From: Lysobacter sp. KIS68-7
GTDB lineage: Bacteria > Pseudomonadota > Gammaproteobacteria > Xanthomonadales > Xanthomonadaceae
DNA length: 64,000 nucleotides
Direction of reading: 5' to 3'
Assembly: GCF_021284745.1 (NCBI RefSeq)
Contig: NZ_CP089925.1
Coordinates: 1,425,001-1,489,000 of the forward strand
Of the stretch, positions 32,505 through 35,153 are shown in pieces (position 1 is the first letter of the stretch; every line of letters starts with the position of its first letter). Made by a program: the position numbers and the translations under genes. Under the pieces are notes generated by a model. The model had not been told where the DNA came from. It was given only the letters and a program-made list of their open reading frames with translations, and ran no database searches.

Positions 32505-33794
32505 GTGTCCAAACTCGACCAGGTGACGCTGACCGCTGGCGACAAGAACGTCGCGCTTCCGGTGCAGCATCCCGTGCTCGGCCAGCCGTGCATCGACATC
32601 GCGAAGCTGCCGAAGGAAACCGGTTGCTTCACCTACGATCCGGGCTTCACCGCCACTGCCGCGTGCAAGTCGGCGATCACCTATATCGACGGCGATGCCG
32701 GCGTGCTGCTGTACCGCGGCTACCCGATCGAACAGCTCGCGAAGCATTCGAGCTTCCTCGAAGTCGCGTACCTGCTGATGAACGGCGAGCTGCCGTCGAA
32801 GACGCAGTTCGATTCGTTCGAGCACGAAGTCACGCATCACACGATGATGCACGAGGCGTTCCGCACCTTCCTGTACGGCTTCCGCCACGACGCGCATCCG
32901 ATGGCGATGATGGTCGGCATGCTCGGTTCGATGGCGAGCTTCTACCACGGCTCCCTCGACCTGGACGACGCCGAACAGCGCCGCCTCGCCGCGATCCGCC
33001 TGATCGCGAAGGTGCCGACGATCGCGGCCGCGTGCTACCGCTATTCGATCGGCTGGCCGATCCGCTACCCGAAGAACAACCTCGAATACACGACGCGCTT
33101 CCTGCACATGATGAAGGAAGTGCCGAGCGAGCCGCTGGAGCTCAGCCCGACCGCCGCGAAGGCGCTGGACCTGCTCTTCATCCTGCACGCCGACCACGAA
33201 CAGAACGCGTCGACCTCGACCGTCCGCCTCGTCGGTTCCACCGGCGCCAACCCCTACGCGTGCGTCGCCGCCGGCGTCGCCGCGCTGTGGGGGCCCGCGC
33301 ATGGTGGTGCGAACGAAGCCGTGCTCAAGATGCTCGAGGAAATCGGCCGTCCGGAGAACGTCGGTTCCGCCGTCGCGAAGGCGAAGGACAAGGAATCGGG
33401 CTTCCGCCTGATGGGCTTCGGCCATCGCGTGTACAAGAACTTCGACCCGCGCGCGAAGATCATCCGCGAGATGACCTACAAGGTGCTGGACGAGCTGGGC
33501 GTGAGCGATCCGCTGCTCGACGTGGCGGTGAAGCTGGAAGAGGCGGCGCTGAAGGACGAGTACTTCGTGCAGCGCAAGCTCTATCCGAACGTCGATTTCT
33601 ATTCGGGCATCATCTACAAGGCGCTGGGCATTCCGACCGAGATGTTCACCGTGATGTTCGCGATTGCGCGCACGGCGGGTTGGGTGTCGCATTGGCTGGA
33701 GCAGCAGACGGATCCGGAATTCAAGATCGGCCGTCCGCGCCAGATCTACACCGGGTACGCGGAACGCGACTACGTGGATCTCGGCAAGCGCTGA
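32505..33794 (+). CDS. gltA: Citrate synthase (type II, GltA)
   Basis: GltA condenses oxaloacetate and acetyl-CoA to citrate at the entry of the TCA cycle. The 429-residue protein has the N-terminal domain of the Gram-negative hexameric type ([23 protein letters not shown]) and the catalytic elements [35 protein letters not shown] and [10 protein letters not shown], containing the two histidines and the aspartate. A GTG start with AAGGAG seven bases upstream matches the N-terminus of relatives. It stands alone, with rpmE2 ending 272 bases upstream behind a terminator and a strong hairpin terminator downstream. Confidence 0.97.
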
Positions 33795-33816: not shown

Positions 33817-33851
33817 AACGAAGCCCTGCGGAAGCGGGGCTTTCGTTTTTT
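33817..33851 (+). terminator. Rho-independent terminator after gltA
   Basis: AACGAAGCCCTGC pairs with GCGGGGCTTTCGTT (one bulge and a wobble) across a GGAA loop and runs into TTTTTT. It lies 22 bases after the gltA stop and directly abuts the large palindrome that follows. Confidence 0.9.
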
Positions 33852-33895
33852 GGTTCGCCGCTCCACAAGACGGGCGTTCCGCCGCGAGCCGTCGC

Positions 33896-33940
33896 GTGCT
33901 CCTCGCCGCTCACATACAGCAAGCTCCCGTCGAGGAGCAC
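33896..33940. repeat. Left inner hairpin of the palindrome
   Basis: GTGCTCCTCG (33896-33905) and CGAGGAGCAC (33931-33940) form a perfect 10-bp stem with a 25-base loop. The same stem and essentially the same loop, inverted, recur in the right arm. Confidence 0.85.
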
Positions 33941-34346
33941 ACGGCATCTCACGTCGGCCCGCTTCGCGACTTGATGCCCTCGCGGAGCGTCTGGAGTCGT
34001 GGGCGCGCCGCGATTGGATCGCGTGCGCCAACACCGTAGCTTCGGATCGTCGGCCCGTCGCCCACCTCGGCGCTGCGCCGTCGCGTGCGTCACCTTCGGC
34101 AGGCAACGTGCCTAGCGAGATTTGTGGGCACGCGCCCCTTCGGACCGAAGGGTGCGTCCCCTGAATTGATATCTAGGCACCTTGCCCTCCGAAGCGGGAC
34201 GCACATGCCGATGCAGCGAGCGAGGGGGCAAAGTGCCGACCTTCCGCAGCCGGAAGTTGGCGCAGGCGATCGCATCGCGGTGGCACGCGGCTTCCAGACG
34301 CTCCGCGCAAACATCGGATCGCGAGCGGGCCGACGTGAGATGTCGT

Positions 34347-34391
34347 GTGCTCCTCGACGGGAGCTTGCTGTATGTGAGCGGCGAGGAGCAC
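34347..34391. repeat. Right inner hairpin of the palindrome
   Basis: GTGCTCCTCG (34347-34356) and CGAGGAGCAC (34382-34391) form the same perfect 10-bp stem. The 25-base loop is the reverse complement of the left-arm loop, so the two hairpins can either fold separately or pair with each other. Confidence 0.85.
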
Positions 34392-34435
34392 ACGGCAGCT
34401 CGCGGCGGAACGCCCCTCTTGTGGAGGCGACGGAC

Positions 34436-35083
34436 TCAACCGCCAGCTTCGTACCCAGCGATCTCGTCGTCGAGCATCAACGCCCGCAGCTGCACCGCCG
34501 AAGCCCGCTTCATCGGCTTCTCGTCGATCGAAGACAGCGGCGCCTGCCGCAGCGCATCGCGCGGCAAGACCGTGAGATCGAAGGTCAGGTCTTCCGCACT
34601 GAAGACCCACACCGTCACGTCCCCCGCGCGCTCCCGATCGAAGCGGACGCGGCGCGAACGCGCCTCCGCGGGAATCGCATGCTGGTCCAGGTGGCGCGCC
34701 ACCGCATCCACCTCGTCGGTGTACAGATGCAAGGCCACCGGCGAATGACGATCCGCCGTGCCGTCGAGCACCGGCCCGACCAGGCGCGCATCGAAAGCCG
34801 CGAAGAACTCCAGCGCACGCAAGGCCGCTTCGCGCCTCTGGCGCAAACCGCTCGCCTGCGCGTCGCCCTGGAACAAGCGCTGGTACTCGCGCAGCGCATC
34901 TTCGATTTCGCGATTGCGCGGCAACGACGCATCGTCGTGGATGCCCAGCCGGTCGGCGGCCTTGAGCTTGGCCTGGTGGTAGTCGCGGATGCCGCCTTCG
35001 GCCATGAGCCGCGCGGCCTCGTGGGCGAGGCGGCGGCGACGTTCGTTGGTGCGGGTCTGCGCGTGCTGGCGGGCGTGGTGCAT
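34436..35083 (-). CDS. Conserved protein of unknown function, possibly nucleotidyltransferase-like
   Basis: I do not recognise this 215-residue protein with certainty. A basic helical N-terminus (MHHARQHAQTRTNERRRRLAHEAARLMAEGGIRDYHQAKLKAADRLG) precedes a mixed alpha/beta part (FFAAFDARLVGPVLDGTADRHSPVALHLYTDEVDAVARHLDQ and VWVFSAEDLTFDLTVLP). That part vaguely resembles predicted nucleotidyltransferases of Xanthomonadaceae, but no clear GS-x10-DxD catalytic motif is seen. The ATG at 35083 has CAGGAG at good spacing and is preferred to an upstream in-frame start. No signal peptide or membrane segment is evident. It lies 70 bases after the mrcA stop on the same strand. Confidence 0.75.
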   Translation of the reverse strand: MHHARQHAQTRTNERRRRLAHEAARLMAEGGIRDYHQAKLKAADRLGIHDDASLPRNREIEDALREYQRLFQGDAQASGLRQRREAALRALEFFAAFDARLVGPVLDGTADRHSPVALHLYTDEVDAVARHLDQHAIPAEARSRRVRFDRERAGDVTVWVFSAEDLTFDLTVLPRDALRQAPLSSIDEKPMKRASAVQLRALMLDDEIAGYEAGG

Positions 35084-35153
35084 GGCGCGCTCCTGAGGCA
35101 AGACCCGGGCCGACTGTAACGCATCGGCCCGGCGCCCCGGCGTCACCGGGGCA

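Follow-up and report, generated by a model that had tools for sequence, protein, structure and literature searches.

The Palindrome Behind gltA

The window, a 64-kb stretch of the Lysobacter sp. KIS68-7 chromosome, encodes the citrate synthase gene gltA on the forward strand (32505..33794; PF00285, E = 4e-143), followed on the same strand by its intrinsic terminator (33820..33846). A convergent gene of 236 aa without Pfam match lies on the reverse strand (34436..35146), and its stop codon is at 34436. The intergenic space between this terminator and this stop codon is occupied by an element of 566 bp (33861..34426) with the termini CTCCAC...GTGGAG; the terminator of gltA is outside the element. 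The first-pass annotation had reported an inverted repeat at 33858-34428, and this repeat is real, with its ends refined here to 33861 and 34426 by alignment of copies and by a self-inverted alignment.

Aligned to its own reverse complement, the element (33861-34426) is 81% identical over 577 columns (E = 1e-133). The two outer arms (33861-33963 and 34324-34426) are 103 nt long and 95% complementary, and a second block (33964-34032 and 34256-34324) is 72% complementary. The left outer arm (33861..33963, forward) consists of the terminus CTCCACAAGA and a hairpin of type A with stems 33874-33908 and 33928-33962. The right outer arm (34324..34426, reverse) also forms a type A hairpin, with stems 34325-34359 and 34379-34413, and ends in the terminus TCTTGTGGAG. 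The palindrome was therefore correctly called nested, as both 103-bp arms are themselves hairpins, and the reported match of 66 of 67 bases between 67-bp arm segments was reproduced exactly. Further inward, the sequence CGCGGAGCGTCTGG (33981..33994, forward) and its inverted partner CCAGACGCTCCGCG (34294..34307, reverse) are unchanged in all 14 full copies of the element described below. They enclose an inner half of class X, beginning GCCCACCTCGGCGC (33995..34132, forward), a central hairpin CGCCCCTTCGGACCGAAGGGTGCG without T tract (34133..34156) and an inner half of class Y (34157..34293, reverse), both halves being assigned from an alignment of halves.

The palindrome is well above chance level: the predicted fold of the element has -476 kcal/mol versus -269 ± 8 kcal/mol for dinucleotide shuffles (z = -25.5), and there is no second palindrome of this size within the window. 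A search of the element against Rfam gave only sub-threshold hits to miRNA models, which are due to the hairpin, and none at gathering score. An assembly artefact, raised earlier as a possible source of the arms, is excluded as far as sequence allows, since 14 diverged full-length copies are present at separate sites of a one-contig genome and analogous elements are found in independently assembled congeners.

Copies in the Chromosome and Their Placement

A genome-wide search for copies, as the first-pass annotation had proposed, showed that the palindrome is not unique. The source chromosome (G000, one contig, 3.25 Mb) contains many scattered copies, namely 14 full copies of about 556-588 bp, one half copy of 289 bp (L022) and one single-arm copy of about 110 bp (L025). 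When the copies are aligned, their ends are sharp and their flanks are unrelated. They share no common open reading frame, and no transposase gene was seen inside any element. Divergence between copies reaches about 30%, and most insertions are therefore not recent. Eight of the 16 copies are found within about 300 kb of either contig end, and the stretch between 2.04 and 2.98 Mb has none, so that a chromosomal bias is possible.

Alignment of all halves separated the inner halves into three classes, X, Y and Z, with 86-91% identity within a class and 62% between X and Y. Nine full copies, including the one at gltA, combine X with Y and five combine Z with Y, and none has two halves of the same class. 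Because the pairing is always X/Y or Z/Y, the element has a fixed internal polarity. The head-to-head halves that had been proposed are distant inverted relatives of each other, presumably of ancient origin.

The copies are inserted directly behind stop codons, most often at convergent seams. At least one end lies within 20 bp of a stop codon in 15 of the 16 copies, and 10 of the 16 fill convergent junctions in which both stops are within about 60 bp; genes were called for these counts by a simple codon-composition rule without a gene finder. No assignment was obtained for L002. The majority of the flanking genes are backed by Pfam matches.

Arm Types and Conservation of Pairing

The outer arms come as exchangeable types, type A (GTGCTCCTCG...), type B (GTGTGTCTTG...) and rarer types, and type B is found on both X and Y halves. 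Left and right arms of the same copy are not significantly more alike than arms paired at random (identity 0.817 versus 0.779, p = 0.14, 14 copies; p = 0.11 for X/Y copies alone). The outer arms of L004, L005, L006, L017 and L018 are only 61-72% alike because their types differ. The gradient in identity along the gltA copy had been read as homogenisation of, or selection on, the outer arms, and this is unsupported by the comparison within copies. The gradient exists because this copy carries a type A arm at both ends, and the difference between its inner halves stems from their membership in two fixed classes, not from local divergence of a single pair.

The same data bear on the origin of the palindrome. 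Formation in place at gltA by inverted duplication or gene conversion could account for the 66 of 67 identical bases in the outer arms, but 13 other loci have this two-class architecture too, the class pairing holds for all full copies and the likeness of arms within copies does not rise above random pairing. An origin in place is contradicted by these observations and we give it hardly any credence; at most, a very ancient inverted duplication may have founded the family.

Pairing in the arms is conserved across types. Among 19 distinct arms, 90.3% of the cells in the hairpin alignment are standard pairs, and both sides have changed in 14 of 31 pairs, a count that is inflated by related rows. 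The covariation score is 0.291, versus 0.130 for shuffled and at most 0.127 for slid alignments, with the caution that template-switch repair of imperfect palindromes can also yield double-sided changes without selection. This supports that the arm pairs conserve a folded form and not a sequence.

Hairpin Elements in Other Genomes

Lysobacter gilvus HX-5-24 (G002), taken here as Noviluteimonas gilva, contains related elements of about 640-720 bp as well as composites with extra DNA between the halves. These elements share the X core, and the class X inner half is the sole part of the element that is detectable by DNA similarity in this species. Their two arm hairpins have other, mutually unrelated sequences that still pair. 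Some of them have a repeated module on either side, a two-way terminator (GAAGCCCGCC...GGCGGGTTTC) that bears T tracts on both strands. In a further congener (G004), a two-hairpin element of about 360 bp with the ends CTCCGG...CCGGAG is present nine times, and the other copies are 89-92% identical to the query copy. In 400 kb each, G001 yielded many other large hairpin elements and G003 yielded one. In this genus, large hairpin elements therefore seem to be habitual, and their sequences change from species to species.

Beyond these, short and weak similarities occur in G003, G009 and other genera, and the G003 locus concerned (L027) has no comparable palindrome. Plasmid and phage collections gave no match to the family of the gltA element, and a pattern scan of the genome collection returned mostly chance hits in GC-rich genomes. 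The hairpin apex GCACGGCCATGGATGGCCGTGCG is common to hairpin elements of several congeners (for example at G000:C1:2564665-2564687, L363, and G001:C1:332143-332165, L362) and was restricted to this genus among the 99 family genomes searched. G001 also has many hairpins of GGGAAAC heptad-like repeats with inverted partners (G001:C1 7057-7181, 127896-128032, 134320-134441, 293624-293741 and others; L302-L321) and another hairpin type built on AAAACAGGGGTCAGAGCAC. Both apparently represent further repeat families within the genus.

Each genome of the genus has 2-9 genes of the XAC0095 family, most of them preceded by an sRNA-Xcc1 element (RF02221). Several have a hairpin element directly downstream (e.g., L022 1190-1791, G000:C1:149,995-150,596). 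Upstream of sRNA-Xcc1/XAC0095 loci, two species have arrays of short tandem repeats (L022 580-900 and L101 700-1200), which differ in repeat sequence. It seems very improbable that the element forms the flank of an integron-like or gene-cassette unit in which genes of the XAC0095 family, with their sRNA-Xcc1 leaders, are the core. Halves or hairpins do lie downstream of such genes at L022, L101, L102, L103 and L112, and at locus L057 of L. gilvus an XAC0095-family gene stands between two element halves that bracket it, but most full elements have no such gene, most XAC0095 genes have no element nearby, and neither of the attC core motifs of integrons, RYYYAAC and GTTRRRY, is present in 33861-34426. 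An XAC0095 gene as the element's own gene was likewise rejected, the association being real at several loci and not general.

Empty Sites and Insertion

None of the four congeners has the element at the gltA junction. In each of them the convergent gene adjoins gltA, and the short convergent spacer contains a terminator hairpin at the position equivalent to 33820..33846. The alternative offered earlier, a single conserved palindrome with a function at the gltA locus, is therefore not what the congeners show. Six further junctions were probed (L003, L005, L008, L010, L012 and L025). The L003 junction is empty in all four congeners and L012 in three, the fourth (G001) having a small unrelated gene at that place; L008 is empty in G001 and G002, and L025 in L. 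gilvus. For L005 and L010, no congener was found to have the two flanks side by side. Presence or absence at orthologous sites was thus observed between species at five junctions, and since the congeners have both flanking genes adjoining without an element, the element is an insertion. The earlier suggestion of a dispersed intergenic element with the behaviour of a mobile element is borne out by its 16 copies and these empty sites.

At L003, L012 and L025 the stop codons of the congeners' convergent genes touch or overlap, with the sequences TGATCA, CTAA and CTAG. Although the absence in congeners could in principle stem from repeated loss, gain is much more likely, since loss would have had to be exact between overlapping stops at several junctions. 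At L003 the right-hand gene, which encodes an M23 peptidase, had its last codons replaced by the insertion and takes its TAG stop from the element end CACTAGA. No target-site duplication was found, as flank matches (2.4 bp) are no longer than those with mismatched partners (2.8 bp).

Such placement could imply that the host selects the element, whatever its origin, as a bidirectional 3'-end barrier that stops read-through or antisense transcription where room for a terminator is lacking. The 10 convergent copies, the near absence of a spacer in congeners at L003, L012 and L025, and the two-way terminator module that brackets similar elements in L. gilvus would agree with this. Against it, gltA already had a normal terminator and has kept that terminator, a T tract is missing from the G000 element, and congeners manage without the element at the same junctions. 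We regard selection as a barrier as a tenable but doubtful explanation. Alternatively, the element could be a repeat that is purely selfish or neutral and is found where it is only because purifying selection removes insertions elsewhere. Diverging copies, halves and fragments (L022, L025), a species-specific distribution and the tolerance of a long gene-free insert behind a housekeeping gene such as gltA speak for this. It would not explain why hairpin pairing in G000 outlasts complete replacement of the stem and why the unrelated stems of L. gilvus pair too, and random insertion alone would hardly be expected to reach nearly overlapping stop codons. It seems rather unlikely that a selfish or neutral repeat is the whole explanation.

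A Proposed Mode of Spread and Action

The palindrome behind gltA belongs to a species-specific, non-coding family of nested palindromes that inserts behind stops, mostly at convergent seams. We consider it probable that the family spreads non-autonomously and is transcribed as 3' hairpins. A recombinase or transposase acting in trans would place the element, and this mobiliser might recognise a folded single strand, as suggested by the conservation of structure and the lack of target duplication. Behind a stop codon the element would survive since insertion there should cost little. Transcription entering the inserted element from either side would make it part of the 3' ends of the neighbouring mRNAs, where it probably forms 3'-UTR hairpins. 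Hairpins of such predicted stability would block 3' exonucleases, read-through and antisense transcription between convergent genes. Lacking a T tract, the G000 element does not qualify as a classical intrinsic terminator; a two-way barrier for convergent genes would fit its placement. The arm hairpins would serve as exchangeable cassettes in which pairing is kept through selection on the folded form, through template-switch repair, or both.

Extended to the genus, this could mean that site-directed elements seek seams where convergent stops nearly overlap, insert a two-way barrier of several hundred bases without target duplication, and swap whole hairpin cassettes, so that each species comes to have its own family, unrelated in appearance to the others and kept by shape and not by sequence. 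We put this forward as a speculative extension that is improbable at present.

Small palindromic repeats behind genes are common, and long palindromes are unstable. For this reason, nested palindromes of several hundred bases retained at 14 full-length sites of one small chromosome are unusual. The empty sites, the placement at convergent stops and the hairpins conserved in shape make it possible to test directly how such a repeat moves and whether it acts as a two-way barrier.

Comparison With Known Repeat Families

The REP/BIME sequences of the GTAG and CGTC super-families resemble the gltA element in being extragenic palindromes behind genes with ends that can donate a TAG (PMC3733652). REPs in convergent junctions are <20 bp away from both stop codons (PMC3733652), and for the G000 element this distance from a stop holds for at least one end in 15 of 16 copies. 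REPs are 20-40 bp long, usually present in high copy number and tagged with GTAG or CGTC, whereas the G000 element has 566 bp and about 16 copies. GTAG REPs go with RAYT genes (PMC3733652), but the RAYT/Y1 transposase (PF01797) is absent from G000, its one match being in G001, and the terminal GTAG tag is missing as well, since the sole GTAG is internal (34036). A REP of the GTAG type was therefore rejected. REPs of the CGTC type are defined by a CGTC, TGTC or CCTC tag, a stem of 8-9 bp and a loop of 4-5 nt (PMC3733652). The element has a GACG beside a terminal mini-palindrome (33869), but the stem of this is about 4 bp and lies inside a larger hairpin, and this type was not accepted either. 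CGTC REPs have no known transposase (PMC3733652), as is the case for the G000 element.

Like MITEs, the element has terminal inverted repeats, is non-coding and dispersed, and is present or absent between species; the target-site duplication of MITEs is missing. A terminus-pattern search of G000 found no coding element with the same ends that could be an autonomous parent, as all matches were at known copies except for one of 19 bp at 1,701,248. YPAL, a MITE-like repeat of Yersinia, is palindromic, non-coding and dispersed and forms stable hairpins, as the G000 element does. It is inserted closely behind stop codons, varies in presence between strains and has target duplications. By its descriptions YPAL is about 130-170 bp long (a 168-bp repeat) with one palindrome, which sets it apart from the G000 element with its 566 bp, nested hairpin arms, two fixed half classes and no target duplication. 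YPAL and related bacterial miniature insertion families are listed in PMC2267715, PMC2759123 and PMC3733652, and the open-access literature on palindromic repeats of Lysobacter and Noviluteimonas gave no description of the family of the gltA element.

The G004 element comes from the same genus and is similar in having two hairpin arms, CTCC...GGAG ends and a similar sequence at the inner arm boundary (GAAGCGCGCCGACGTGA versus GAGCGGGCCGACGTGA in G000). It differs in its stem sequences, its second arm does not repeat the first, and fewer of its copies are tightly convergent than in G000 by rough gene calls. Taken together, the element is a MITE-like form of palindromic interspersed repeat that is unusual in its size, its nesting and its pairing of half classes.
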